From IMG/VR virus record IMGVR_UViG_3300020190_004843, positions 85,093 to 149,092 of that record: a stretch of DNA of 64,000 bases; one strand, given 5' to 3'. Position numbers and translations under genes: made by a program. The notes below the pieces were generated by a model. It worked only from the letters and a program-made list of their open reading frames with translations. It ran no database searches and was not told where the DNA came from. Below, in pieces: positions 11,307-64,000 of the stretch; position 1 is the first letter of the stretch, and every line of letters starts with the position of its first letter. Source of the DNA: a virus.

Positions 11307-11723
11307 ATGAAAAAAATTATATTACTTTTATTTGTATGCCCTTTATTTTTCATAAATGTTGCTGCACAAATAAAAAAAGAAAATGCTCCAGTTCTAAAAT
11401 ACGTTGATTCAATTATCGGAAAGCACGTGACCTTTGTTTCTTGGTACAACAAAAAGGACACGATTAAGGTAACACAATTAAGAATTTTTGATTTTGAAAA
11501 AAAGATATATTTAGATTACTATGAAGATGATATCAAAAAATTGTATCCAATCTTATTCAGGGGTTTTACAATTAAGGTAGATACTCCACTTAGTAGTGCC
11601 GACTGGAGCTACATTATAAATCTTGATTTCATCCACGCCATCTATTTTTTGAATAGGACCTATCTTATGAACTCCTTTCCCCATTTCGGAAGTAAGGATA
11701 CCCCATGGGAAATATTCACCTAA
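11307..11723 (+). CDS. Secreted protein of unknown function, overlapping the antisense gene
   Basis: A 138-residue frame starting MKKIILLLFVCPLFFINVAAQ, a clear signal peptide with cleavage likely after Ala. The body has no recognised fold. A TATTTTTG box at about 11265-11275 matches TAnnTTTG upstream. The last 171 bp lie over the 3' end of the minus-strand gene ending at 11553, a large convergent overlap. The C-terminus may be an extension caused by a lost stop. Periplasmic or surface location is inferred from the signal. Confidence 0.55.
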   Translation: MKKIILLLFVCPLFFINVAAQIKKENAPVLKYVDSIIGKHVTFVSWYNKKDTIKVTQLRIFDFEKKIYLDYYEDDIKKLYPILFRGFTIKVDTPLSSADWSYIINLDFIHAIYFLNRTYLMNSFPHFGSKDTPWEIFT

Positions 11724-12779
11724 GTCTGACAATAATCTTTTCTTTTTACCCGACCTGTCAAATCTATTGAAAGCATCCATATATTGACTATTAGACAAAG
11801 AAGAGTTGGGTCCAAAAGTATTTCGGAAACTTTCAGATAGTCCCCATTTCTTCATTTCATCTAATGAATCAATTATTCTCGAATCATTTGAATTCAAACC
11901 TGTAATTTTATTATCACCCATTTGAGCAGGTAAATCAGCGTTACCAAATTTCGATCTCAAAGAGGTGCCCAAGAAAATCCTATAAGGATCAGTATTGAGA
12001 CCTCTAAATAATGTATCACCATAAATCTTACCATTGTATTCAAAATAAATGATATCAGGCATATTAATAGTTTCAATTGTAATATAAACAAGACCCTCTC
12101 CTCTATTCAACTTCCAAGGAACTATTTGAGTAAAATCTAAATCAGCCATCAAATACCCACCTTCATTTTTTAGCGGTTCCGTATTACACAAAAATTTTGT
12201 TTTCACTACTTCTGTAGTTTTAGAACCTGAACCCGTGATATCAAAATTTACAAACTGCTCTTCTCTGTATTTTCTCTTTTTATCGGGGTTGTTTTGGTCA
12301 CCTCTTTTATATGGTGTTTCCCCTATTTTTACATGATCAACATCGGGAGGTATAGAAATAACAAGTGTGCCTTTTTTTACAAAATAAGGGAATATTTCTT
12401 CAAAATATTTTTTTATGCTTCTGGCTCTTTCTAATGCCAAACTCCCTTTTTTTTCGAATCCTTTCGGATTTGTAACTTGGGACTCTCCCGCAGATACATT
12501 CACAATGAATTTATTAGCATCAGTTTTATCAATAAAATCTTCGATTTGAGGTTTTAATCTTTGAATCTCTGATTTTACAGAGGGTGAGTCATAAACCCCA
12601 TACTCGAATTTGTCTCCGAGCTTCTGTGTTGGAAAATATTTTTCTTCCGTTTTTTTGTCGATACCAATTACAACCTCTGTCTGTTCTCTCAGAATATAAT
12701 GATTTTTTGTTGCGATTTTATGTAAATTTAAAATCCTTAGAACTTCATTCGAATCAATATTCAAATTTTGTTTTATCAT
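11553..12779 (-). CDS. Putative virion protein with OmpA-like segment
   Basis: A 408-residue protein. The N-terminal 33 residues form a helical leader ending I-L-R-E, a possible prohead-protease site. About residues 84-130 (FIVNVSAGESQVT, then LALERARSIKKYFEE) resemble the OmpA-type peptidoglycan-binding pattern of a strand followed by N/L-x2-x-RA-x2-V-x2-Y/F. The remaining 280 residues are unassigned. It is transcribed from its own late-type box 3 nt before the ATG, after the capsid-gene terminator. A role in cell-wall contact is inferred. Confidence 0.55.
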   Translation of the reverse strand: MIKQNLNIDSNEVLRILNLHKIATKNHYILREQTEVVIGIDKKTEEKYFPTQKLGDKFEYGVYDSPSVKSEIQRLKPQIEDFIDKTDANKFIVNVSAGESQVTNPKGFEKKGSLALERARSIKKYFEEIFPYFVKKGTLVISIPPDVDHVKIGETPYKRGDQNNPDKKRKYREEQFVNFDITGSGSKTTEVVKTKFLCNTEPLKNEGGYLMADLDFTQIVPWKLNRGEGLVYITIETINMPDIIYFEYNGKIYGDTLFRGLNTDPYRIFLGTSLRSKFGNADLPAQMGDNKITGLNSNDSRIIDSLDEMKKWGLSESFRNTFGPNSSLSNSQYMDAFNRFDRSGKKKRLLSDLGEYFPWGILTSEMGKGVHKIGPIQKIDGVDEIKIYNVAPVGTTKWSIYLNCKTPE

Positions 12780-16957: not shown

Positions 16958-17671
16958 TTATCTATCTAAATAATCGGTGAGTTTTTTCATTAAATCAATA
17001 GACTTATTTCCTTCAATTTTTACCTCAGTAATTTTCTCCTCCTCTAAATTTTCTTCATATTTCATTCTATCTTCAACATTCGGGAATAAATATGCTCCTG
17101 GTGTTGACGGTGATGAAACAAGATCAAAACATATTAGTTCGAAGTCATCTTGTACTTCATTCCTCTCCCCTATTTTTTTCAAGGATCCAACGCCACGAGA
17201 TGATACTCCCATAGTGACTCCTTGTCTTAAAAGATTTGCTGCGATATCTCCTTTGGTGGACACAATGCCACTCTCATGAAAACCTGGAGATGTTAATAAT
17301 TTTAATTTACCCATTAAAATATTACCTTCCCACCATATGTCAGTAATTATGTGTGATACTCTGTCAAGATCAATTAACGAAGACTCAGGGTGATTTAATT
17401 CAGAAGTTGATAGTCCTTTTTTGATTGTGTTTTTATATTTTTCTGCCTCTCTCTTTAGTATGGTCTCGGGATAAAATCTTCCATTTCTGTTAGCTGTATT
17501 ATATTTTTGGAGTACAGCATAAAATTCGAATGGTTTTTTGTAGTCTCTATCTTGAGCTTCTTTCAAAATAGATTCATTCAACTTATCTAATGGAGATAGA
17601 TATCCAGCATCATCCTCAATCAAAATTCCTTTTCCTGTTTCATGTGGTCCAAGTATTTTATATTGTTTCAT
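16958..17671 (-). CDS. Prohead protease, gp21-like (S77-type serine protease)
   Basis: A 237-residue protein. STSELNHPESS (His94) and GVTMGVSSRGVGS (Ser157/158) match the His and Ser sites of the T4 gp21 / herpes-assemblin-fold proteases; NRNGRFYP (71-78) is also characteristic. It cleaves scaffold and capsid proteins inside the prohead, in T4 after (L/I)-x-E. Cluster order (portal, small gene, protease, scaffold, capsid) matches T4. The ATG at 17671 is preferred over an upstream in-frame TTG. A late-type box lies 12 nt upstream. Confidence 0.88.
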   Translation of the reverse strand: MKQYKILGPHETGKGILIEDDAGYLSPLDKLNESILKEAQDRDYKKPFEFYAVLQKYNTANRNGRFYPETILKREAEKYKNTIKKGLSTSELNHPESSLIDLDRVSHIITDIWWEGNILMGKLKLLTSPGFHESGIVSTKGDIAANLLRQGVTMGVSSRGVGSLKKIGERNEVQDDFELICFDLVSSPSTPGAYLFPNVEDRMKYEENLEEEKITEVKIEGNKSIDLMKKLTDYLDR

Positions 17672-17682
17672 CAAAACTTTTT

Positions 17683-19140: not shown

Positions 19141-20973
19141 TTAGGAATTTAGTAAGTCGTCTAACTCTTTTTCAATTTCTCCTAAATATTGTTGGCCATG
19201 ACTCAAGTCCAAAATTGTTTTACCCTTAATCATGTCCGAATCGACCAAAATATTCATATTGTCGAATCGTGATTCTGGTACTGTTGGTTCTACTTCAGGT
19301 CCTGTTACCTCAGGTGCTGCGACATCTTCAGTTGGAGGTGGTGTCGTTTCAGAAGGTAATGCCCCCAACGCAGGTTCTGATACCTCACCACTTGGGGTTG
19401 ATCCAGCAGTGTCGGTAGATCCAGTTGTTGATCCATATAATTTATCTATATTGTCAAATATTCCTGTTTTCTGTATTACTGTTGGTGTATTTTTTAATTC
19501 TTCACCAACTGCTTTTTCAATTCTTTGTTGTTGTAAGTCAAGTTTGATTTCATCGTCGGACATCCCCAAAATATGTTTTTTAGCCCATGTTGAAGATACG
19601 GGTTGAATACCGTTACCAGGATCGGACACCGCATCTTTATACAAAAGAATTTTTTCTTTCCAAACATCAATTTTCAGAAGATCAGCTTGAGTAGATGGAT
19701 TTGTTAAACCTAAAGTGAAATTGGCAATCTCTTCCTCAAATCCGTTTAGAAAAAGATGTATGATTGCTATCTTATTCAGCTCTTGTAACATACTCTTTTG
19801 AATTCTATTAATTGTGCGTGCGAAACGGATATCTTGTAATGAAAGGTTTTTACCGTCACCAACAACTTCTTCAAATCCTAAAAAGGCTTTCGGAACTCTA
19901 AGTGCCGTCAATAATTTCTTTTGAATATATTCAATGTCGGCTATCTCTGCGAGGTTCGCAGCACCGGGTAGAGTATCGATAGGTGAAGGAGCAGCCGGAT
20001 CTCTTACAGGTACAAAGTAGTCTTGGTCTACAGCCATCTGATTAAATCTGAGATCCACATTACCTGTCTTCTGATCTAAAACTTGGTCTCTTTTGAATTT
20101 ATTAGCAACACGTTGTACATATGCTTCAACGTCTTCGTCGTTCATATTTCCAACAAAAACTTTGAAAATTCTTCTTTCAGGCGCTCTTGATGTACGATAG
20201 ATTAACATCGCGTCTTCGGAAAGTAAAAGTTGTTTCCAAATTCTTCTTGCTTTTTCCAGCATGGAGGTACCATATGGAAGTTTCCGATCATCACCCAATA
20301 ATCTGAAGTGAGCGATTTCCCATGATTGGAATTCCATGTTCTTATTTTTCCACTTGAAATGTAATGCCCTTTGAGCTGTAGGATCCTCAAGTGATTGAGC
20401 TCTTTTTTCGTGCATTCCTGCCTCAACCCTTTCGATCTCAATATTAGGTAATTGTTGGACTCCGACAACCCCCTTTTCAGGATCTAATTTCAAATAGACA
20501 AAGTTATCACCATACTTACATGTATTTCTTGTCCACATAGGTAAGTTGGTGTTTATATCAAGTGTGTTATTGAATAAATCTGCTAAGACACTTTTGATTC
20601 TCTTTGACTCAGAATAAATTTGTAGAATAAATCCGTCTTCATTGGTGGTTGTAGATTCTTCAGCATATATGTCTAAAGCGGCTGATATCTCAGGAGTGTA
20701 CTCCATAGACTCGTAATCGTATACTGAGGCTAATCTAGTCGGTTCATAATACACAGCTTGAGAATACAAATTATTCTCAATTTTTGCCCATTGATTCGAT
20801 AAATAGAAAGTTTGTTGTGCTTGTAACTTTTCCTTCTCATATTGAGCCTTGTCTTGTGTTTTTAACAAAACTTCTTTGTCGAAATGAAAGGTCGGGTAAT
20901 CCTGATTAAGGAGTGCGTTAGGTCCAAATGCGGCGGAAAGTCGTTGCCATACCGTTAGGTTCTTATTATCCAT
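19141..20973 (-). CDS. Portal protein, gp20-like
   Basis: A 610-residue protein of T4 portal size. Characteristic gp20-family stretches are visible: YEPTRLASVYDYESMEYTPE (start of the clip/wing region), ALDIYAEESTTTNEDG, then GTSMLEKARRIWKQLLLSEDAMLIYRTSRAPERR cut into short motifs here as SMLEKARR and SRAPERRIF. The dodecameric portal forms the head vertex for DNA entry. The C-terminal 90 residues are Pro/Thr/Glu-rich and probably disordered. It follows the terminase gene and precedes the prohead genes, as in T4, but the sheath and tube genes found between 17 and 20 in T4 are absent here. Confidence 0.88.
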   Translation of the reverse strand: MDNKNLTVWQRLSAAFGPNALLNQDYPTFHFDKEVLLKTQDKAQYEKEKLQAQQTFYLSNQWAKIENNLYSQAVYYEPTRLASVYDYESMEYTPEISAALDIYAEESTTTNEDGFILQIYSESKRIKSVLADLFNNTLDINTNLPMWTRNTCKYGDNFVYLKLDPEKGVVGVQQLPNIEIERVEAGMHEKRAQSLEDPTAQRALHFKWKNKNMEFQSWEIAHFRLLGDDRKLPYGTSMLEKARRIWKQLLLSEDAMLIYRTSRAPERRIFKVFVGNMNDEDVEAYVQRVANKFKRDQVLDQKTGNVDLRFNQMAVDQDYFVPVRDPAAPSPIDTLPGAANLAEIADIEYIQKKLLTALRVPKAFLGFEEVVGDGKNLSLQDIRFARTINRIQKSMLQELNKIAIIHLFLNGFEEEIANFTLGLTNPSTQADLLKIDVWKEKILLYKDAVSDPGNGIQPVSSTWAKKHILGMSDDEIKLDLQQQRIEKAVGEELKNTPTVIQKTGIFDNIDKLYGSTTGSTDTAGSTPSGEVSEPALGALPSETTPPPTEDVAAPEVTGPEVEPTVPESRFDNMNILVDSDMIKGKTILDLSHGQQYLGEIEKELDDLLNS

Positions 20974-26904: not shown

Positions 26905-28911
26905 TTATGCTAGATCCTTAATTTTCGGAGAAGCCCCTCTCTCATAGGAGTTTACCACTTTAGCAACTAAGTCCCCCGTCCCCCAAGTTTCTAAAGACGG
27001 ACATTTGGATATCTCTGAAGCACCACTATCATTTTTTAACCCTTGAACAATACAAGAGTATCTTCCATTTCTTAAAGTTTTTAGCGTTGCAACCATACCG
27101 TCCTCTTTCGAAAGATAATTTTGTACCCCTACTTTGTTCATGTTTGTAGAACCTGGTAATTTCCAAGTTGTATTGAATGGGTTATTTCTTCCTCCTTTAC
27201 CTTCCGCTTGTCTCCACGCGTATAAAAATTTTAGATTTTCACTTGTAACAGGTGCATCTAATTCTTGTAACAATCTCTCATAGAAATTTTTATCTGTAAT
27301 ATTTCCTGTATCTATTTCTTTTTTTGTTTGGATTTTTGAGAGATCATTTTCTGAAAAATTTCTTATCACCAACATGGCTGCGAGATATCTTAAATCAAAT
27401 CCATCGATTTTTCCATCTGATGAAATGGAAACTGATTTTTGAAATTCTTTGGTTGCATTTTCTGTTTCAGGACCGAACTTTCCATCAACTCCCCATTTTG
27501 GTAAGGAAAATCCTAAAAATTGTAATGCGGTTTGAATTGCTTCAACTTCTTTCTCGTATTTTATATTTTTCGGATAGTACTGAAAAGACTTATTTGTTTC
27601 AGCAAGCTTAATCAATTCCTGTATAAAGTTTGATTTTCCAACAATGTTAGATATTTCTTCATCCTCACTGAATTTTTTACCATACTTACCCAACTTCTGT
27701 CCTTGAGCACATTTTAAACTTCCATCATCATTCAAAAATTCTCTTATATTGTGCCCCCATTCTATTCCAATGTGAACATGATCATATGAACTATTTGGGA
27801 AATCCATCACGTATCCTAACAATTGACCACATTCTACTTTACTACCCTTTCTAATTTGTACTCCTTTTAAATGAGTGTAGTATATGTCAGGAAGACCATT
27901 ATCGCTATCAATTGTGAAGCTTTGACCATATAATTTTTTTCCCTTTGTTTTAATTACATCATCACCATAATCGGTAAATGTTTTTAACGTACCCCCCGCC
28001 AGAGCAAAAACAGGATCTCCGACAGATGCTTTAACATCCCATGCGTTTGCTGAAGCCCATCCACTTTGACCGGCATGTGCCCCATCCTTTGGTATACTCA
28101 TATTCTCACCTCCAAGTAAATGTCCACTTGAAGGTGCTTCTTGTAAAAATTTAATTATACTTTCTTTCAAAGATTGTTCTATTGATAATTCTTGATCTAC
28201 GTAATTGTTGTATGTATTAAATAATTTTTCAATCATTCCGTTTCTTCTTAGAAATTTGAAAGTAAGATTTTCATAAGAAAGTTCACCCTCTTTTTCCAGT
28301 CCTGATTTTCTATATTCTTTGAGTTTGTCTTTTAAATCCCCAATCATCTTTTTCCCTTTTTCCAAATCATCTTTATCAAGTGACTCTAAAGCATTTTCGA
28401 TTTTTTCATTCCAGTTCTTCACTTTATCTTCTATGACAGACTTATCAATTTTATTTTTCATCTTTTCAGGTCTATTAATCCACTCATCATCCATAACTGA
28501 ATAAACTCCTGAACTATCATGTTTCTCATCGTCACCCTGAGCATATAACTCTACATCATATCCGAAGATTTTGATGTCGTGTTTTTCGTTAAAAAGTTGT
28601 TTTTTTAAATTAAATAACTCTTTGTAAGTTTCCTCATGTTTACCAAATTTTTTCAAATCTACAATAACATGAAGATCAAAGTCTGAATATTCTGACCAGT
28701 TGAAGTTTGATAAAGATCCTGTTAGAGTAATATCTTCAACAAAAGCATCTTCACCCAAATAATCAATGAATTGGTTAGCGATCTTCATCAAACCCTTTCT
28801 GACTTTGGGTTTCATTTTAGATTTTTTTGGATCATCAGAATTCTCCCAAATTTTTGGGTTAAGGGTGTCCCTCAGTGTAAAACTGTCAAGTATTTTTTGG
28901 AAATTACTCAT
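26905..28911 (-). CDS. Fusion: nucleotidyltransferase, M23 endopeptidase, peptidoglycan-binding and lysozyme-like domains
   Basis: A 668-residue protein. Residues 45-125 are a Pol-beta-type nucleotidyltransferase: TGSLSNF (Gly65-Ser66), D77-x-D79 and a third acid near FGYDVEL. After a helical linker ending KFLQEAPSS (256-262), about 265-400 form an M23 metallopeptidase with AWDVKA and the HVHIGIEWG zinc motif. About 455-515 form a PG_binding_1-type repeat (VDGKFGPETENATKEFQ). Residues 545-668 resemble a lysozyme-type domain (AWRQAEGKGGRNNPFNTT, then VGVQNY). A late-type box 4 nt upstream and virion-gene context suggest a particle-borne wall-degrading protein. The LQE-A linker fits a prohead-protease site. 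Confidence 0.75.
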   Translation of the reverse strand: MSNFQKILDSFTLRDTLNPKIWENSDDPKKSKMKPKVRKGLMKIANQFIDYLGEDAFVEDITLTGSLSNFNWSEYSDFDLHVIVDLKKFGKHEETYKELFNLKKQLFNEKHDIKIFGYDVELYAQGDDEKHDSSGVYSVMDDEWINRPEKMKNKIDKSVIEDKVKNWNEKIENALESLDKDDLEKGKKMIGDLKDKLKEYRKSGLEKEGELSYENLTFKFLRRNGMIEKLFNTYNNYVDQELSIEQSLKESIIKFLQEAPSSGHLLGGENMSIPKDGAHAGQSGWASANAWDVKASVGDPVFALAGGTLKTFTDYGDDVIKTKGKKLYGQSFTIDSDNGLPDIYYTHLKGVQIRKGSKVECGQLLGYVMDFPNSSYDHVHIGIEWGHNIREFLNDDGSLKCAQGQKLGKYGKKFSEDEEISNIVGKSNFIQELIKLAETNKSFQYYPKNIKYEKEVEAIQTALQFLGFSLPKWGVDGKFGPETENATKEFQKSVSISSDGKIDGFDLRYLAAMLVIRNFSENDLSKIQTKKEIDTGNITDKNFYERLLQELDAPVTSENLKFLYAWRQAEGKGGRNNPFNTTWKLPGSTNMNKVGVQNYLSKEDGMVATLKTLRNGRYSCIVQGLKNDSGASEISKCPSLETWGTGDLVAKVVNSYERGASPKIKDLA

Positions 28912-34764: not shown

Positions 34765-34772
34765 TATTTATA
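34765..34772 (+). promoter_or_regulatory. Late-type promoter box TATTTATA before the TonB receptor
   Basis: Exact octamer 21 nt before the ATG at 34794, directly behind a terminator-like hairpin. It implies that the phage late programme reads the receptor gene. Confidence 0.6.
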
Positions 34773-42566: not shown

Positions 42567-43772
42567 ATGAAAAAGGTTATAAATGAGGTTGTACTTTCCT
42601 CACCCCTTGATAACACATCTGTAAATTCAAAGTTTGGACCAAGATGGGGTAGAAACCATAATGGTGTTGACTTAGCGGCTAATGCAGCAAACGTTAAATC
42701 TCCTCTTGATGGTGTTGTAGAGGTTGGAGAAATTAGAAACGATAGTTGTGGTGGTACAATTATTATAACTCATCCTGATGGATTCAAAACAGGATATTGT
42801 CACATGCAAAAAATAAATGTTAGACAAGGACAAAAAGTTAGAAAGGGTGATATCATTGGGGTAAGTGGTGGTGGTGCGAATGATCCAGGTAGAGGTAGAA
42901 GTGATGGCCGACATTTACATTTCTCACTAAAAAAAGATGGTAAATTCGTTGACCCAATGCAATATATCGATAAGGTAAATGTAAGTTCTTCTGATATTTC
43001 ATTATCAGGTGCGACGCCATCTGACGATAGTGGTAAAACAAATTGGGATGATTTTTTCAGTGGAAAATTTTCTAACAGAAATATCAAAGATATATCACAA
43101 AGGGATAAAGATCCAATATTACAAGGCATATTAGAGCCTTTAAAAAACGCCACCATTTTACAATTCGAACATAGAGATTTTATAACACCGATCAATGAAG
43201 ATTATGAACTTTCAAACGGAAGATATATTTCTAGTTTGGAGTATACAATTTCCCAAGGAAAAAAGGTGTTAAACCCCGATATCGGTAAAGTGGTCGATAT
43301 CAGTGATAAAAATAATTGCAAAAATTCAATAACTGTTCAACATGCAATCGATAAGAAAACCTATTATACTGAGTTTTGTTCTGTAGAAAATATCAAAGTA
43401 AGGGCGGGTCAAAATATACCAAAAAATAAAGTTTTGGGTATTGCTGGACAAAATACTATTGTCAGAATTTTGGATAGATCTAAAACAATAATGAGCTTTA
43501 AACAGTTTGAAGATGAGTCGAAGGAAAAAGATCCTAATAAACCAAAAGATAAACCAAGTTTAGATTCTAGAAAGGACCCTATTTTGGATTTGTTAACTAA
43601 CCCACTTAGATCATTAGATTTTGATTCAAAAAATACGAAAACCGTATCAATGAATGATAAGGTTAAAAGTTACGGTTGGGTTGATTGGTTGAGTAAGAAT
43701 ACTGTTAGTAAAAATGAATCGATTCAAGAAAATATTTCACGATTCAAAAGTTTGATGGGTATTATAACTTAA
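42567..43772 (+). CDS. M23 peptidoglycan endopeptidase
   Basis: A 401-residue protein. FGPRWGRNHNGVDLA (about 23-37) and GRHLHFSLKK (about 112-121) give the M23 zinc ligands H-x3-D and H-x-H. A second, degenerate M23-like lobe covers about 205-300 (EYTISQGKKVLNPDIGKVVD) without the metal ligands. The C-terminus ESIQENISRFKSLMG matches a tail motif common in phage virion proteins. No signal peptide, so export would need a holin or virion delivery. Late-type box 4 nt upstream. Confidence 0.78.
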   Translation: MKKVINEVVLSSPLDNTSVNSKFGPRWGRNHNGVDLAANAANVKSPLDGVVEVGEIRNDSCGGTIIITHPDGFKTGYCHMQKINVRQGQKVRKGDIIGVSGGGANDPGRGRSDGRHLHFSLKKDGKFVDPMQYIDKVNVSSSDISLSGATPSDDSGKTNWDDFFSGKFSNRNIKDISQRDKDPILQGILEPLKNATILQFEHRDFITPINEDYELSNGRYISSLEYTISQGKKVLNPDIGKVVDISDKNNCKNSITVQHAIDKKTYYTEFCSVENIKVRAGQNIPKNKVLGIAGQNTIVRILDRSKTIMSFKQFEDESKEKDPNKPKDKPSLDSRKDPILDLLTNPLRSLDFDSKNTKTVSMNDKVKSYGWVDWLSKNTVSKNESIQENISRFKSLMGIIT

Positions 43773-45879: not shown

Positions 45880-46524
45880 GTGAATTACGTTTACAGATAT
45901 GACATAATAAATGAAGTAATTAATCGTTATAATTTCAGAAATTATTTGGAAATAGGTGTTTGTGATCCATCAGATTGTTTTGATTTAATAAGTTGTGAAA
46001 ATAAAATGGGTGTAGATCCAGGTCTTGAATTTGTCAATAACACCGTAAAATATCAAATGACCTCCGATGAATTTTTCAGTGGATTAGAAAATGGCTATTT
46101 GGACTTAGATTCAGGATTTCGATGGGATGTTATCTTCATAGATGGATTACATATTTCTACACAAGTCATGAGAGACGTTAAAAACTCTTTATATCACCTA
46201 AATCCTAACGGCTTTATTTTCCTTCATGACAGTAATCCAGAGTCATATTTCATGCAACGTGAAGATTATTATGTTGATGGACAACAACAACCTTGGAATG
46301 GTACGGTTTGGAAAGTAATCTATAATCTCAGATCACACAGAGAAGATCTTGTTGTAAATACAATCAACACAGATTGGGGTGTTGGAGTAATTAGAAGAGG
46401 ATCTTCCAATCCTATTAAATTCACCAATCCTTTCTATGAGTACAATCAGATGGCAGACAATAGATATCGAGACTTAGGTCTTATAGAGATGTCGGAGTTT
46501 CGGAATCTGTACTATTCATTTTGA
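45880..46524 (+). CDS. Class I SAM-dependent methyltransferase
   Basis: A 214-residue protein. NYLEIGVCDP (about 20-29) is the glycine-containing SAM-binding loop; WDVIFIDGLHIS (about 87-98) and GFIFLHDSNP (about 116-125) give strands 4 and 5, as in Methyltransf_24/TylF-like enzymes. The GTG start at 45880 is favoured over TTG at 45874 because a TATATCTTTTG box ends 3 nt before it. The substrate may be a glycan or small molecule. Its end overlaps the convergent gene by 44 bp. Confidence 0.68.
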   Translation: MNYVYRYDIINEVINRYNFRNYLEIGVCDPSDCFDLISCENKMGVDPGLEFVNNTVKYQMTSDEFFSGLENGYLDLDSGFRWDVIFIDGLHISTQVMRDVKNSLYHLNPNGFIFLHDSNPESYFMQREDYYVDGQQQPWNGTVWKVIYNLRSHREDLVVNTINTDWGVGVIRRGSSNPIKFTNPFYEYNQMADNRYRDLGLIEMSEFRNLYYSF

Positions 46525-46855
46525 GGGTTCTGAGCATCCACTGAGGTTTGTTCTTGTTTTGGATGTTCATCAACCATTCTTTCGCTGAGGGAATATATCC
46601 AAAACAATCCTCTTTTACATGTTGTTCTCCCACGTATCTTGTGTATACAGTTTTATTGTCGGAATTTTGAAACTCACTACCGAACTTTTTTTCCATTTCG
46701 AATATACCTTCAGCATGATGTCTGAACATCCTGTGAAGTGAATCACCAATCCAACCCTTAGTTTCATCCAACCATTCGTGTAAATGGATGTAGTCTTGAG
46801 GTTTACCACCAAATTTTTTTGCCGAAGATTCGGCATGTAAGTTAGGATGTGCCAT
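46481..46855 (-). CDS. DUF6915-like protein
   Basis: A 124-residue protein. SSAKKFGGKPQDYIHLHEWL (about 10-29), then a DSLHRMFRHHAEGIFEMEKKFG-type helix, match a His-rich family I recall as DUF6915, seen in phages and plasmids. The conserved His and Asp could bind metal. Function unknown. Confidence 0.65.
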   Translation of the reverse strand: MAHPNLHAESSAKKFGGKPQDYIHLHEWLDETKGWIGDSLHRMFRHHAEGIFEMEKKFGSEFQNSDNKTVYTRYVGEQHVKEDCFGYIPSAKEWLMNIQNKNKPQWMLRTLKMNSTDSETPTSL

Positions 46856-47093: not shown

Positions 47094-47129
47094 AATAAAC
47101 CCCGAACTTTTTAGTGTTCAGGGTTTATT
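47094..47129 (-). terminator. Terminator hairpin at the end of the secreted-protein operon
   Basis: AATAAACCC-(C)-GAAC and GTTC-(A)-GGGTTTATT arms, a long near-perfect stem lying downstream of the gene ending at 47174. Confidence 0.7.
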
Positions 47130-47173: not shown

Positions 47174-47302
47174 TTATAATATATTATTTAATAACACTGT
47201 AAGTAGAACCATAGTAATTATAGCCCACACAATAGCTTTATAAAAACCATTTTTGGTGTGGTAATCTGAGAAATTCAAAATAAAGTCTAAAAATTTATAC
47301 AT
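47174..47302 (-). CDS. Tiny single-helix membrane protein
   Basis: A 42-residue protein starting MYKFLDFILNFSDYHTKNGF with a hydrophobic C-terminal helix (AIVWAIITMVLLTVLL). Its ATG directly abuts the stop of the thaumatin-like gene. Family unknown; could be a small inner-membrane partner of the secreted proteins. Confidence 0.5.
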   Translation of the reverse strand: MYKFLDFILNFSDYHTKNGFYKAIVWAIITMVLLTVLLNNIL

Positions 47303-48022
47303 TTATTTAGCGGGTTCAATATATCCTTTGAATGTTATTCTTATTTTACCACCTTTTTGGTCTGTACCTCTTGTTGGAGTACAAATTGGTTCAGTATTTG
47401 GTGTTTCGTTAGGTGTTTGACAGGCGGCTTTTCCGTCTGTGTTTGTACAACCTGGACATCCATAAGGGAAAACACCGGGAATACCAGTATTACCTCCAAT
47501 AAATTTATTTTCTATTGTTCGAACACTTATAGTATCTGCAATCCAATCAGGTCCATCAATCAAATCTATGTGCATTATACAGTTAACACCATCAACACAA
47601 CTTAAATCAAGCCCTTCATTAGCACCTTTGGGGACATTTGTGCTCCATTCGAATATATTAACACCTGTAGGCCAACTTTCTGTTGGACATTGTGCAGGAG
47701 TAGTTCCGAACGATACATTACCTGAAAATTGTAATGTAGGTGTATAAGACAAAGTATCGTTTGGTTGCAACCATACAGACCCTTGTAATCCTGAACCTGC
47801 TGGAATACCAAAAATGCCGTCAACAGATTGAACCCAAGTGGAATCTGCTGGTGAGTTTATTGTCAGAAACATTTGAACGCTGTCTTCAGTTGAATTTACA
47901 ACTTCAAATCCTGTGTTTCCAAAAGTAGGGTCAACAGGATGAGTTGTTGAACAAGTCTTCCATACGATTGCTCCTGCTATTACAAGACCAATTCCGATTA
48001 AAATTTTTGTGATTTTTTTCAT
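47303..48022 (-). CDS. Exported thaumatin-like protein
   Basis: A 239-residue protein. Residues 1-24 (MKKITKILIGIGLVIAGAIV) are a signal or anchor. The body resembles thaumatin-like folds: GNVSFGTTPAQCP, then FEWSTNVPKG and GLDLSCVDGVNC (about 130-150), with many cysteines suited to disulphides and therefore a periplasmic or surface site. The role in a phage is unknown. It is in an operon with a lipoprotein and an HMA-domain protein. Confidence 0.58.
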   Translation of the reverse strand: MKKITKILIGIGLVIAGAIVWKTCSTTHPVDPTFGNTGFEVVNSTEDSVQMFLTINSPADSTWVQSVDGIFGIPAGSGLQGSVWLQPNDTLSYTPTLQFSGNVSFGTTPAQCPTESWPTGVNIFEWSTNVPKGANEGLDLSCVDGVNCIMHIDLIDGPDWIADTISVRTIENKFIGGNTGIPGVFPYGCPGCTNTDGKAACQTPNETPNTEPICTPTRGTDQKGGKIRITFKGYIEPAK

Positions 48023-48037
48023 AATTTTTATTTTTTT

Positions 48038-48937
48038 TTATGGTAAAGTTATTGTTCTAATATTACCATTTATGTTTAATGATGCTTGATTATCGCATCT
48101 GCCATCTCCGAAATTAAGAATACCAATCCAAGGACTAGGGTTAGAAAGATTTCTTCTTACAGTTTTAATTTGCCCTTTTACTATCCATCTACATGTGTTC
48201 TTTTTTATGAGTGGTTCGATTATTTCTGAAGACCAACTTGTCGCTCTAAGTCCTCTTACAGATTGACCACTTGAATTACCAGTTTTCTTAAATATATCAT
48301 CACGAAGTATAGGTGTATGAGAACCTTCAATTTGTTCAATTGTTTTTGTTGAGTTCCATTCTACCACATCACCATTAGGATAACCTAATCTTCCACCAAC
48401 AACTGTTACCAACCATTTATGATTGTATTGTGGAGGGAATATCATAATTTGTACCGGATCAACTATATTTTTAATTTTGTACGTTCCTCCAACTGTGACG
48501 GAATCAACACTATAATTAAGGAAATTTGTGACTGATTCTGCACCAGGAATCATCAATCTACATCCGTAAACAGTTTTTATTTGTCCCCTTCTCACCCTTC
48601 CGTCAGGACCCATACAACCTGATTGTGGGAATGTAATTGTTACAATCATTGGAAATGCTTGAGGTGCCAATGGGCGTTCTATTCTAACTGTAAAACATCT
48701 CTGTGCTGTGTCTAGACCATATTCTCTTCCAAAAATGCCTGAACCCATAACTCCTACCTCATCACTCATCCCCATCACATCATCAAAGACATGACTGAAA
48801 GATTGCTCTGAAAAGGCATCACCCTCAGAAGCAACTTGAGACAGTTCAATCTCTTTTTGTTCAACTATGTTTGTGTTTTCTTTTTTACAAGAAAAAAGTA
48901 TTAGAGTAAAACCTAATAATAATAATAGTTTTTTCAT
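48038..48937 (-). CDS. Lipoprotein of unknown function
   Basis: A 299-residue protein starting MKKLLLLLGFTLILFSCKKE, a type II signal with lipobox LFSC; charged residues right after Cys suggest surface export in Bacteroidota. The body is beta-rich with scattered Cys and no recognised family. The ATG at 48937 is chosen over an in-frame start 39 nt upstream because it begins the signal peptide. Likely an outer-membrane lipoprotein. Confidence 0.65.
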   Translation of the reverse strand: MKKLLLLLGFTLILFSCKKENTNIVEQKEIELSQVASEGDAFSEQSFSHVFDDVMGMSDEVGVMGSGIFGREYGLDTAQRCFTVRIERPLAPQAFPMIVTITFPQSGCMGPDGRVRRGQIKTVYGCRLMIPGAESVTNFLNYSVDSVTVGGTYKIKNIVDPVQIMIFPPQYNHKWLVTVVGGRLGYPNGDVVEWNSTKTIEQIEGSHTPILRDDIFKKTGNSSGQSVRGLRATSWSSEIIEPLIKKNTCRWIVKGQIKTVRRNLSNPSPWIGILNFGDGRCDNQASLNINGNIRTITLP

Positions 48938-48947
48938 AGTTTTGATT

Positions 48948-49271
48948 TTAATTTTTTTTGTTTCTGTCGTTTCCAAAAATCAATTTTCCGTTAAAATATA
49001 AGGTAATAATACTGAAACCAGCATCGTCAACTCTTTTTTTTAGGTTTTTAAATTGAAATTCGTCCTTTTTGTATTCCAAATCCCATTCTTGTGTCTTAAG
49101 ATTCGGTTTTATTTTTTGAATGAATTTATCATTAGAAAGTGATTCGTGAATTGCTCTCGAACACATTGAACAAGTAACTCCACCTGTAGTGAATTTAATT
49201 TTATCTTGTCCAAAAGTAATAAATGGTAGTAAAAAAAATAAAAAAATTACTGCGGTTATAAATTTTTTCAC
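48948..49271 (-). CDS. Exported heavy-metal-associated (HMA)-domain protein
   Basis: A 107-residue protein with a signal peptide (MKKFITAVIFLFFLLPFITFG) and an HMA ferredoxin-like fold: GGVTCSMCSRAIHESL holds the CxxC metal site (about 32-36), with VDDAGFS near residue 85 as the second conserved loop. It probably binds a soft metal in the periplasm. Very similar architecture to host copper-binding proteins. Confidence 0.72.
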   Translation of the reverse strand: MKKFITAVIFLFFLLPFITFGQDKIKFTTGGVTCSMCSRAIHESLSNDKFIQKIKPNLKTQEWDLEYKKDEFQFKNLKKRVDDAGFSIITLYFNGKLIFGNDRNKKN

Positions 49272-49290
49272 TGTTTTATTTTTTTTATCA

Positions 49291-49527
49291 TTAATTTTTA
49301 TTTATTATGAATCTGAAAGAACGAAGTGGGTAGTGATTTAATTCTCGTTCAATACATTTACGATTACTTGTAATGTAATTACGATTTACCATCTCAACCG
49401 AATCCCAAAATTGGTTTATAAAAATTGGCGATGATAGTATCCGAGATGCATAATTCCCAATTTGAATTTTTTGTAAATCTAATTTGGGAGTTTTACGGAC
49501 GAGTGTAATGCTTTTAGATTTAGTCAC
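49291..49527 (-). CDS. Small basic protein in the secreted-protein operon
   Basis: A 78-residue basic protein with a GTG start (MTKSKSITLVRKTPKLDLQK). No signal peptide and no family recognised. It stands 19 bp before the HMA gene and 3 bp after a tiny frame, so it is operonic. Confidence 0.45.
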   Translation of the reverse strand: MTKSKSITLVRKTPKLDLQKIQIGNYASRILSSPIFINQFWDSVEMVNRNYITSNRKCIERELNHYPLRSFRFIINKN

Positions 49528-49530
49528 AAT

Positions 49531-49602
49531 TTATTTTTTACACCAACCAAAACATACTTTTCCAAAAGTAAGTTTGTTGATTAGATTACAGATGTGTTTC
49601 AT
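49531..49602 (-). CDS. Tiny Cys-containing peptide
   Basis: A 23-codon frame, MKHICNLINKLTFGKVCFGW and three more residues. First frame after a late-type box and directly before the GTG-started gene. Basic, with three cysteines. Coding status is unproven. Confidence 0.35.
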   Translation of the reverse strand: MKHICNLINKLTFGKVCFGWCKK

Positions 49603-49615
49603 AGCTTAATATTAA

Positions 49616-49623
49616 TATAAATA
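49616..49623 (-). promoter_or_regulatory. Late-type promoter box TATTTATA for the secreted-protein operon
   Basis: Exact octamer on the minus strand, 13 nt before the ATG at 49602. It suggests late expression of the whole secreted block 49602-47174. Confidence 0.55.
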
Positions 49624-51165: not shown

Positions 51166-52857
51166 ATGATTGTAATGGGAATGTCCGCCGGACACGATAG
51201 AGGGGCTGTATTAATTAAAGATGGAAAAATCTTGATTGGTATTACTCAATCTAGATTATCAAGAATTAAAAATGATGGTGGAAAATTTAGAAATGGTGGA
51301 GAGGGTTTGCCCTTACTGTGTATTGAGTATTGTCTCAACCACTATGGTTTAAATTATAACGACGTAGACCTATACGTCTATTCCTCTACTGAATTTTTTT
51401 CTAATATGGAGGATCAATTTGAACAACATTTGGGTCAATCTATCGAAAAACTCAAATTTATACCTCATCATTTAGCTCATGCTTTTTCATCTTTTTATTC
51501 TTCAGGTTTTAAAAAAAGTGCTGTAGTTGTTGCTGATGCAATGGGTAACACTATTGAGGAAACTAATTCATTTGGTCGAAGAAAAGAAAACTGGTATCCT
51601 AATGAAAACTTGCCAATTTTGCCCGAAGGTCATACATGGGGTGAGTCTGTCAGCATTTATAATTTTACAATGGACGGATATAAAGAAGTTTTCAAAAAGT
51701 GGCAACCATTTCCACATCCTTTTAACACTGAAGGACAAGGATCACTTGGCACAATGTATGGAATGGGTACATATCAATTAGTTTATGACAAAGAAAAGAA
51801 TTGGTGGTCGGCGGGAAAACTTATGGGATTAGCATCATACGCTGATAAAAAATTTGTAGATGAGCATCAACTTTCAGTTCAGGAACTTGACAACGATATT
51901 TCAATAAAATTAATAGAATTCTATTCAGAGGTCAGATATTATAGTGATTTTTATCAAAGAGCTAACGTGGCTGGTCTGTACCAAAGGGAACAAGAACAAT
52001 CTTCTTTGATTCTCGGAAGAATGGCAAAAAAACTCACAGGATCGGATAATATTTGTCTAGCTGGAGGATCGTTTCTAAATTGCAACTCCAATGAATTGAT
52101 TATAAAATCAGAACTTTATAAGGATTGTTATTTTGTACCACCAGCAGATGACTCAGGTATTCCATTAGGTTGTGCTTGGTATGGTTATCAAAGCTTAGTA
52201 AAAATGGACAAGACAACATTTTTGAGTCCATATTTGGGGAAGACATACTCTAAGGGAGAAATAATAGCCGAGATATTAAAATTTGAAGATTGTAAATATG
52301 AATATTTTGAGGATTTTGATAAATTGACTGAAGTCGTATCCAATTATCTGTCAGAAAACAAAGTTGTTGGGTGGATGCAAGGGGGTTCTGAAATCGGTCC
52401 AAGAGCTTTGGGTAATAGGTCCATCTTAGCATCACCCCAAAAACCGTGGATGGAAAAAAATATCAATTTTCTAAAAGGTAGAGAGTGGTATAGACCTTTT
52501 GCTCCTGCGGTTCTTTATGATCATCAGTCAGACATATTTGAATCTGATGTCTTCTCACCATACATGCTTGTAACGACCACTGTAAAAGAAGAATGGAGAG
52601 ACAAAATACCTGCGGTAACGCACATTGATTACTCGTCAAGACACCAATCAGTTACACCCAAAACTAATCAAAGGTTTTATAAATTGTTACAAAAATTCTT
52701 TGATAAAACAGGTGTACCCGTTCTTTTAAATACAAGTTTTAATGGTCCTGATGAACCAATTATTGAAACTCCATCCGATGCATTGAAAACTTTCCTCGAT
52801 AGAAAATTAGATATCTTGGTGATTGGAGACTATTTGATTACAAGGAAAATTTTTTGA
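51166..52857 (+). CDS. Carbamoyltransferase (NodU/TobZ/CmcH type)
   Basis: A 563-residue protein. The Kae1-like N-terminal half has GMSAGHDRGAVLI and PHHLAHAFSSFYSSGF (about 107-122) with the metal His residues. The YrdC-like C-terminal half has IGPRALGNRSILASP (about 412-426) and WYRPFAPAVL. Enzymes of this family O-carbamoylate sugars or, in some phages, 5-hydroxymethylcytosine in DNA. No dCMP hydroxymethylase is present in the window (thyA here keeps the dUMP Asn), so the substrate may be a sugar attached by the nearby glycosyltransferases. Single-gene unit with terminator. Confidence 0.85.
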   Translation: MIVMGMSAGHDRGAVLIKDGKILIGITQSRLSRIKNDGGKFRNGGEGLPLLCIEYCLNHYGLNYNDVDLYVYSSTEFFSNMEDQFEQHLGQSIEKLKFIPHHLAHAFSSFYSSGFKKSAVVVADAMGNTIEETNSFGRRKENWYPNENLPILPEGHTWGESVSIYNFTMDGYKEVFKKWQPFPHPFNTEGQGSLGTMYGMGTYQLVYDKEKNWWSAGKLMGLASYADKKFVDEHQLSVQELDNDISIKLIEFYSEVRYYSDFYQRANVAGLYQREQEQSSLILGRMAKKLTGSDNICLAGGSFLNCNSNELIIKSELYKDCYFVPPADDSGIPLGCAWYGYQSLVKMDKTTFLSPYLGKTYSKGEIIAEILKFEDCKYEYFEDFDKLTEVVSNYLSENKVVGWMQGGSEIGPRALGNRSILASPQKPWMEKNINFLKGREWYRPFAPAVLYDHQSDIFESDVFSPYMLVTTTVKEEWRDKIPAVTHIDYSSRHQSVTPKTNQRFYKLLQKFFDKTGVPVLLNTSFNGPDEPIIETPSDALKTFLDRKLDILVIGDYLITRKIF

Positions 52858-55660: not shown

Positions 55661-55695
55661 TTGTTGTTATGGAAAATGTTTCATATCTTCGAATT

Positions 55696-56238
55696 ATGAA
55701 AATTAAGATATTGTTTTTACTAGCCCTCGTATCATTATTTTTCGTCAGTTGTGAGAAATATGTTGCGGGAACAACTGTAACCCTGAGTGGAAAATATATG
55801 ATCAACAGGATAACAATGAAATCTGTTGATCAAAACACCACCACTGATTCAACCTACAGAATTGGTGATGTTTATATCGATACGAGTAGGAATGCTCCGG
55901 TGCCTTTCGATCGAATCCGAGTTGGGTATACATTTTTACACTTCGGGTATGATCTCATAAATTTAAGATATTTGGGTGTGAGTCAAACAGGTTCAGACCT
56001 GTGGGATTTTAGATATCAAACATCTTATTGGATTTGGGGTAACAATCAATGGCAATCAGGTTATTTACAATTCTCTTACACCGATGTTTTAAAAACAAAT
56101 GCTAGACACACCCTCACTTTTCAAATAACAGAGGACAAATTGGAAAGTTTGGAACTCACAAGTAGTGGAATTTGGCCATCATATAAATTTGGTGAGAAAA
56201 AAATAATGATTATCAATCTAACAAGAGTTGGTCCTTAA
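55696..56238 (+). CDS. Lipoprotein of unknown function
   Basis: A 180-residue protein. MKIKILFLLALVSLFFVSCE is a type II signal with lipobox FVSC followed by Glu-Lys, suggesting export to the cell surface in Bacteroidota. The body is beta-rich and aromatic (YQTSYWIWGNNQWQSGYLQF), like small lipocalin-type or adhesin lipoproteins. An in-frame ATG nine codons upstream (55669) is less likely. The end overlaps the convergent gene by 4 bp. Confidence 0.62.
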   Translation: MKIKILFLLALVSLFFVSCEKYVAGTTVTLSGKYMINRITMKSVDQNTTTDSTYRIGDVYIDTSRNAPVPFDRIRVGYTFLHFGYDLINLRYLGVSQTGSDLWDFRYQTSYWIWGNNQWQSGYLQFSYTDVLKTNARHTLTFQITEDKLESLELTSSGIWPSYKFGEKKIMIINLTRVGP

Positions 56239-63257: not shown

Positions 63258-64000
63258 ATGAAAAAAACAGTTATAACACTGACCTTATTAGCAATCACTT
63301 TTTGCCTATTTTTCTACATGTGTTCAAATAGAAATTTAGGAGAAACTAAATTTAATTTTTCTATTGTAGAAAATAAAGATTTTAAAAATCTTCCTGCATT
63401 ACAATCTTTTGCATTTGCCACGCATAAAGATTATTGGATTATTTTAGGAGGAAGAACAAATGGATTTCACGGTTTTCCAAATCAACCAACTCCCGCTTTT
63501 CCTTATTCAAAAGCTAATAAGTACATATATGTCTATGATACAAAAACACATATTCTTGATAGTATGAGTGTTTATGAATTGCCACAAACAATTCAAAATC
63601 AGTATGCAACCACAAATATGCAACAAACCCAATATAGAGATTTTCTTTATTTGTGTGGTGGATATGGTAAAGCTGGTTCATCTTCTTCATCAAAATTCAT
63701 AACAGATAGTACTATCTCGAGAATAAATTTACCTGCGTTAATAGAAAGAGTTTCTCTTAAACGAAAAAATATAATGCTTGAAACAATATTCGCTTTTGAT
63801 TCAAATCCGAACCTTCATGTTTGTGCTACTGGCGGGGAATTAATAAGACTTGAAAATGGTAGTTTCTATCTTTGTGTTGGACATAGATATTATGGAGAAT
63901 ATGTAGATACTTTGCCGGCTCCAATACAAAAATATAGAAACAATGTTACGGTTTTTGATTTAATAGAAAAATCAAATTCTATTTCTATAAATCCATCTAC
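63258..64000 (+). CDS. Kelch-type lipoprotein (cut by window end)
   Basis: The open frame continues past 64000; at least 247 residues. MKKTVITLTLLAITFCLFFY with M-C at 21-22 is a lipoprotein or single-pass signal (lipobox FYMC). Kelch-like GG turns occur at about 68 (ILGGRTNGFHG) and 132 (LYLCGGYGKAG), typical of a beta-propeller. It starts 5 bp after thyA without its own promoter, so it is in the thyA operon. Likely exported to the outer membrane or surface; role unknown. Confidence 0.6.
   Translation, partial: MKKTVITLTLLAITFCLFFYMCSNRNLGETKFNFSIVENKDFKNLPALQSFAFATHKDYWIILGGRTNGFHGFPNQPTPAFPYSKANKYIYVYDTKTHILDSMSVYELPQTIQNQYATTNMQQTQYRDFLYLCGGYGKAGSSSSSKFITDSTISRINLPALIERVSLKRKNIMLETIFAFDSNPNLHVCATGGELIRLENGSFYLCVGHRYYGEYVDTLPAPIQKYRNNVTVFDLIEKSNSISINPS

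Follow-up and report, generated by a model that had tools for sequence, protein, structure and literature searches.

The operon described here belongs to a large virus of Bacteroidota bacteria, represented by an IMG/VR virus record of 149,092 bases. Positions 85093-149092 of this record, a stretch of 64,000 nucleotides, are referred to below as the window and provide the coordinates. Genes for a portal protein, the large subunit of the terminase, a major head protein and a head protease were recognized in the phage genome with PHROG profiles, and the phage also carries a tmRNA and 11 tRNAs. The operon is a single minus-strand unit that extends from a TATTTATA box to an intrinsic terminator hairpin (Table 1). 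Its intergenic gaps measure 0-19 nt, and none of 200 shuffled sequences was as stable as the hairpin. The unit is flanked by genes for tRNA-Met/Trp and tRNA-Ile/Asn.

A re-check of the sequence confirmed the box, the gene order, the strand and the domain calls given in a preliminary description of this DNA. That description also had the encoded proteins acting outside the inner membrane. Export or membrane signals are indeed present in the HMA protein, the lipoprotein, the thaumatin-like protein and the 42-aa peptide, but two of the six operon products (23 and 78 aa) lack an export signal. Among the loci checked, an identical copy of the 78-aa ORF was found only in one contig (L009), and no relatives of the 42-aa membrane peptide were found. 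Directly beyond the tRNA pair that flanks the operon on the left is a gene for a DUF6915 protein (46481-46855; E = 1.3e-38). Just to the right of the operon, a NodU-type carbamoyltransferase (51166-52857; PHROG 1601, E = 2.5e-104) is possibly another gene for surface or small-molecule modification.

Table 1. Positions of the operon features, the receptor gene and a second lipoprotein gene in the window.
Feature	Position	Strand	Basis or remark
Operon TATTTATA box (promoter-like, late-type)	49616..49623	-	13 nt before ATG of the 23-aa ORF
23-aa candidate ORF (MKHICNLINKLTFGKVCFGWCKK), first in the operon	49531..49602	-	read from sequence
78-aa ORF without export signal	49291..49527	-	ORF list
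HMA protein, 107 aa	48948..49271	-	Pfam PF00403, signal peptide
299-aa lipoprotein, ATG at 48937	48038..48937	-	lipobox LFSC, then KKEN
239-aa thaumatin-fold protein, N-terminal membrane anchor	47303..48022	-	fold match
42-aa single-span membrane (TM) peptide	47174..47302	-	ORF list
Intrinsic terminator hairpin closing the operon	47094..47129	-	14 bp, U-rich tail, -19.2 kcal/mol, z -6.8
TATTTATA box of the TonB receptor gene	34765..34772	+	conserved in 22/37 relatives
Phage TonB-dependent (Oar-like) receptor, 1095 aa	34794..38081	+	signal peptide, CarboxypepD_reg, OMP_b-brl_4 barrel
Second lipoprotein	55669..56238	+	lipobox FVSC

The TATTTATA box

The octamer occurs 18 times in the window (6.3 copies expected), at sites spanning 3643-59956. 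Its distribution is not a matter of chance: across the whole 149-kb genome, no other octamer is as enriched near gene starts (binomial P-value = 7e-39), with 27 of the 32 copies located no more than 50 nt 5' of a start on the same strand. Copies lie 5' of the genes for the portal (19141-20973), the head protease (16958-17674) and the TonB receptor, as well as of an endolysin-like gene (26905-28911). Where the receptor box is conserved (22 relatives), it is mostly situated 27-30 nt before the gene, and in one partial locus it is 38 nt from the start of the match; the relatives in which it is missing are mostly those of at most 72 per cent identity. Inspection by eye revealed no conserved -35 element with the box.

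It is a fair reading of this distribution that TATTTATA represents a genome-wide late-type promoter element. The term 'late-type', which the preliminary description had applied to the operon, is supported by a box that the portal, head protease and TonB receptor genes have in common, and the operon would thus carry the same promoter signal as the head genes. We also considered the box as a reversed T4-type TATAAATA element and rejected this possibility, as only 4 of the 32 copies lie this close to a start in the reverse orientation, versus 27 of 32 in the forward orientation. No T4 gp55-like sigma factor was found among ten candidate proteins scanned.

Exported proteins of the operon and their origins

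The HMA protein consists of a signal peptide that ends in FGQ and one CopZ-like domain with the motif TCSMC. Consistent with the earlier call of a signal-peptide HMA protein with CxxC, the domain scores above the Pfam PF00403 cutoff (25.7 bits versus 24.8) and retains the CxxC metal site. Its relative on contig L006, which, like contig L007, comes from another metagenome than the window, falls just below this cutoff (23.6). The best PDB matches are copper ATPase domains (3.6e-13), with ATP7 among the matches, and CopZ is matched in NCBIfam under the cutoff. The bacterial relatives found are distant and weak, and the earlier view of this protein as host-derived is not supported. The nearest of them adjoin HYC_CC_PP proteins and other exported genes, and this neighborhood suggests copper. 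We predict that the HMA protein is a periplasmic metallochaperone of the copper type. Its dN/dS ratio, relative to the L006 protein, is 0.26.

The operon lipoprotein has a lipobox, MKKLLLLLGFTLILFSC followed by KKEN, in which the cysteine comes after the h-region; this motif is kept in L006 and L007. The surface-export signal of Bacteroidota lipoproteins (LES) consists of acidic residues just after the +1 cysteine, where the operon lipoprotein (CKKEN) has a single acidic residue. The protein is 73 per cent identical to the product of a gene in a Bacteroidota metagenome-assembled genome (MAG L066), and of 150 genomes from the order to which that MAG belongs, 78 have a member of its family. In four bacterial genomes, the gene order is TatD, lipoprotein, polysaccharide deacetylase and GltX, with small variations. 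By this kinship, the lipoprotein is host-derived, from a bacterial chromosomal family. In an AU test of whether the phage lipoproteins group together to the exclusion of the MAG gene, the P-value was 0.155, and dN/dS between the window and other phages is 0.09-0.14. Sequence searches of Pfam, PHROG, NCBIfam and PDB returned nothing usable, and no relative was found in 50,697 phage records. With no PHROG match below an E-value of 0.15, kinship with Llp or Cor is not supported. The structure model (pLDDT 47.5) was too poor for a fold search.

For the 239-aa protein, there was likewise no usable sequence match in Pfam, PHROG, NCBIfam or PDB, and none of 11 members of its family matched the PF00314 profile at E-values up to 1. 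In a Foldseek comparison of its AlphaFold model (pLDDT 70), the top 24 PDB hits were all thaumatin-like (E-values down to 1.1e-5; the best 22 with a probability of 1.00; query-normalised TM 0.33-0.42), followed by weak matches to pore-formers (actinoporins and ostreolysin). Among viral models, the best fold matches were thaumatins of eukaryotic giant viruses, and no phage protein passed 0.001. Hallmarks of the thaumatin family are 16 conserved cysteines and the PROSITE-type signature C-x-T-[GA]-D-C. In our reading of the alignment of the phage proteins (A4), only two cysteine columns are invariant and the signature is absent. Because the fold comparison points to thaumatins and the sequence comparison does not, we use 'thaumatin-fold' rather than 'thaumatin family member'; the label 'thaumatin-like' in the preliminary description holds for the fold and fails in Pfam and PDB sequence searches.

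Relatives of this protein are encoded at 14 viral loci, on contigs of up to 318 kb, with dN/dS of 0.05-0.35. None was found in the 50,697 phage records or in the 150 bacterial genomes of the MAG L066 order, the latter being an empty answer that by itself shows little. The assertion that all of the operon's proteins look host-derived is thus upheld for the lipoprotein but not for the thaumatin-fold family, which was seen only in phage relatives. The N-terminus is a hydrophobic anchor with no consistent cleavage or lipobox motif, and therefore the domain probably sits on the periplasmic side of the inner membrane and not at the cell surface.

Other genes for exported proteins had been listed elsewhere in the window. 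The second lipoprotein is real and is unique to this phage among the loci checked. At 63258-64000, a Kelch-like exported protein runs off the contig end; its lipobox is weak and the designation 'lipoprotein' is doubtful for this truncated gene. A signal-peptide ORF at 11307-11723 overlaps an opposite-strand gene (11553-12779) by 171 nt, and its coding status is uncertain.

The TonB-dependent receptor and its accessory genes

The TonB receptor named in the preliminary description is real by its signal peptide and domain profiles (PF13620, 60.5 bits; PF25183, 162 bits). The plug profile PF07715 gave no hit at 0.1, and residues 151-250 are the most conserved with bacterial homologs. We found the receptor in 39 further viral contigs (L015-L053) of up to 287 kb, at 68-98 per cent identity. 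A portal gene is present in all five receptor-bearing records of at least 198 kb, which identifies them as phages. Two faecal contigs, in one of which the receptor is 30 per cent identical over most of its length, are the only exceptions to its absence from the 50,697 phage records. The nearest sampled bacterial relatives are 53 per cent identical, and in a quick tree with six bacterial rows, the phage copies group in a single clade (SH-aLRT of 99). The dN/dS ratios of 0.04-0.14 indicate strong purifying selection. The phage receptors share one length and a conserved putative plug region, and none of their segments resembles a hypervariable loop for phage binding; a functional transporter would be expected to look this way. 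In close relatives, the position of the receptor gene is conserved, with Clp-protease-like, Hsp20-like and tmRNA genes as neighbors. A GroEL-like gene is found near the receptor gene at seven loci, mostly on large phage contigs (L032, L033, L034, L041, L042, L046 and L049).

In the window, the operon is approximately 11 kb from the receptor gene and on the opposite strand. The proposed link between the two is supported by relatives, where HMA and lipoprotein genes (L006) or thaumatin-like and lipoprotein genes (L007) lie downstream of the receptor. Specifically, the order in L006 is TonB receptor, HMA, lipoprotein, second TonB receptor, second lipoprotein, 202-aa exported protein and PspC, and the order in L007 is TonB receptor, 202-aa protein, thaumatin-like protein, lipoprotein, 124-aa protein and PspC. 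Such accessory genes are patchily distributed among 44 related records (lipoprotein in five, thaumatin-like protein in five and HMA protein in three), so most receptor-bearing phages manage without them. All tested genes have dN/dS well below 1, indicating that all are maintained. The PspC-like protein of 67 aa is encoded near the receptor in L006 (6281-6484), L007 (7347-7550), L023, L024, L029, L041, L019 and L050, and perhaps answers envelope stress from the export of outer-membrane proteins.

The second receptor and lipoprotein genes of L006 (2129-5604) overlap by 4 nt, and genes of this type are adjacent in nearly all of 16 bacterial loci examined. In six of these loci (L113, L114, L122, L123, L125 and L126), PiT/PhoU-like or PhoB/PhoR-like genes, named by reading translations and not from profile hits, lie within a few kilobases. 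The cassette of L006 therefore includes an apparently complete pair of genes for phosphate-linked uptake. This pair makes the provisioning of uptake likelier than pure receptor blocking, as indirect evidence where the operon in the window is concerned.

Function of the operon and comparison with known systems

We favor the explanation, with a probability of approximately 0.45, that the operon provides for uptake and the envelope late in infection, as an accessory to a TonB-dependent receptor of the phage core. Upon a switch to late transcription, suggested by the box in common with the head genes, the phage would insert its own TonB receptor into the outer membrane. The operon would contribute a periplasmic copper-binding HMA protein, a lipoprotein of host lineage and a membrane-tethered thaumatin-fold domain, and uptake and metal handling would be kept or retuned across the envelope while host synthesis is taken over. 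Gene order, the common box, export signals, purifying selection, the linkage with the receptor gene in relatives and the bacterial source of the lipoprotein can be seen in the sequences themselves, whereas expression, timing, location and transport function are inferred from them, and so is the earlier proposal that the phage may rebuild the cell surface, although the linkage in relatives lends this proposal weight. Several observations count against provisioning, namely the absence of the phosphate-linked pair from the phage in the window, the distance of the operon from the receptor gene and its opposite strand, the patchy distribution of the accessory genes and the two products that lack an export signal.

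The main rival is superinfection exclusion, which we regard as somewhat unlikely. In this case, the lipoprotein would bind outer-membrane TonB receptors from the periplasm, perhaps together with the HMA or thaumatin-fold protein, or the phage receptor would displace that of the host. Neither further phages nor newly released progeny would then attach to infected cells or debris, comparable to the case of T5 Llp and FhuA. The precedent is the phage T5 lipoprotein Llp, which jams the TonB-dependent transporter FhuA (PMC9586334), and the phage set studied here also combines a lipoprotein with a TonB receptor, close together in the L006 gene string. Late expression would fit protection from adsorption to debris, yet exclusion proteins are usually expressed early (PMC9586334) and the operon has its box in common with head genes. 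The lipoprotein, moreover, is large, and its family is an ordinary one of bacterial chromosomes, found in about half of the sampled genomes of one order, and the receptor exhibits neither loop diversification nor loop loss.

We consider it improbable that the thaumatin-fold protein, the 42-aa peptide and the lipoprotein make the envelope permeable or break up the outer membrane late in infection, in a spanin- or holin-like manner. The late-type box, the small single-span peptide and the weak fold matches to pore-formers agree with a role in lysis, but endolysin-like genes are located elsewhere (26905-28911 and 42567-43772), the lipoprotein gene comes from a bacterial housekeeping locus, the HMA protein does not fit, and the cassette is absent from most relatives. 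A chance pickup of host genes as passive cargo, or a chimeric assembly, is very improbable, for despite the clearly bacterial origin of the lipoprotein and the position of the cassette between tRNA genes, a usual site of cargo, the same genes stand beside phage genes in independent contigs of other metagenomes (which speaks against an assembly artefact), their dN/dS ratios are low, the operon is delimited by a box of phage type and a terminator, and the thaumatin-fold family was found in phages but not in the bacteria sampled from the MAG L066 order.

Provisioning and exclusion alike are covered by the statement that these phages probably alter the infected cell's nutrient uptake or its visibility to other phages. 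More tentatively, we propose that a lineage of large Bacteroidota phages runs a virus-installed uptake system in the infected cell, with a core late TonB transporter and interchangeable exported helpers, namely the copper-type HMA protein, the lipoprotein, the phage-specific thaumatin-fold protein and, in one relative, the phosphate-linked receptor pair. Receptor blocking and genes for nutrient acquisition are both known from phages; if the proposal is true, some large phages rebuild outer-membrane transport during infection. The genes described here are testable candidates for takeover of Bacteroidota cells at the level of the envelope, and they include a phage-specific thaumatin-fold family that escapes Pfam and PHROG profiles.

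Several known systems resemble parts of this arrangement. T4 late promoters (TATAAATA, with no -35 element) likewise consist of one TATA-like octamer located directly upstream of late genes, but the core is TATTTATA here. The 239-aa protein has a predicted fold in common with thaumatin-like proteins (PF00314/PR-5), from which it differs in lacking a profile match and the signature, in having few of the 16 cysteines, in its membrane anchor and in its phage source. The HMA protein shares the HMA domain and TCxxC with CopZ and other HMA metallochaperones, and matches CopZ and copper ATPase domains, but it is encoded by a phage and has a signal peptide, pointing to the periplasm, and no adjoining ATPase or efflux gene. 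The exclusion lipoproteins Llp of phage T5 and Cor of the T1 type are also phage-encoded lipoproteins in the setting of a TonB-dependent transporter. However, T5 Llp is small, early and directed at a host receptor, whereas the lipoprotein described here is 299 aa long, late-type and a member of a family from bacterial chromosomes, and the phage itself encodes the receptor.

Phage lipoproteins with an action on TonB transporters are thus already known, as is a putative TonB receptor encoded by a megaphage (PMC9723777); the open-access papers searched contained neither a conserved phage clade of Oar-like receptors linked to exported helpers nor a phage family with the thaumatin fold. The megaphage in question, the marine Mar_Mega_1, is also a large phage with a gene for a TonB-dependent receptor, a putative SusC-type protein proposed to aid uptake during infection (PMC9723777). 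That receptor was noted as a single gene, whereas the Oar-like family described here extends over approximately 40 contigs, forms one clade and is accompanied by a conserved late-type box and exported accessory genes.
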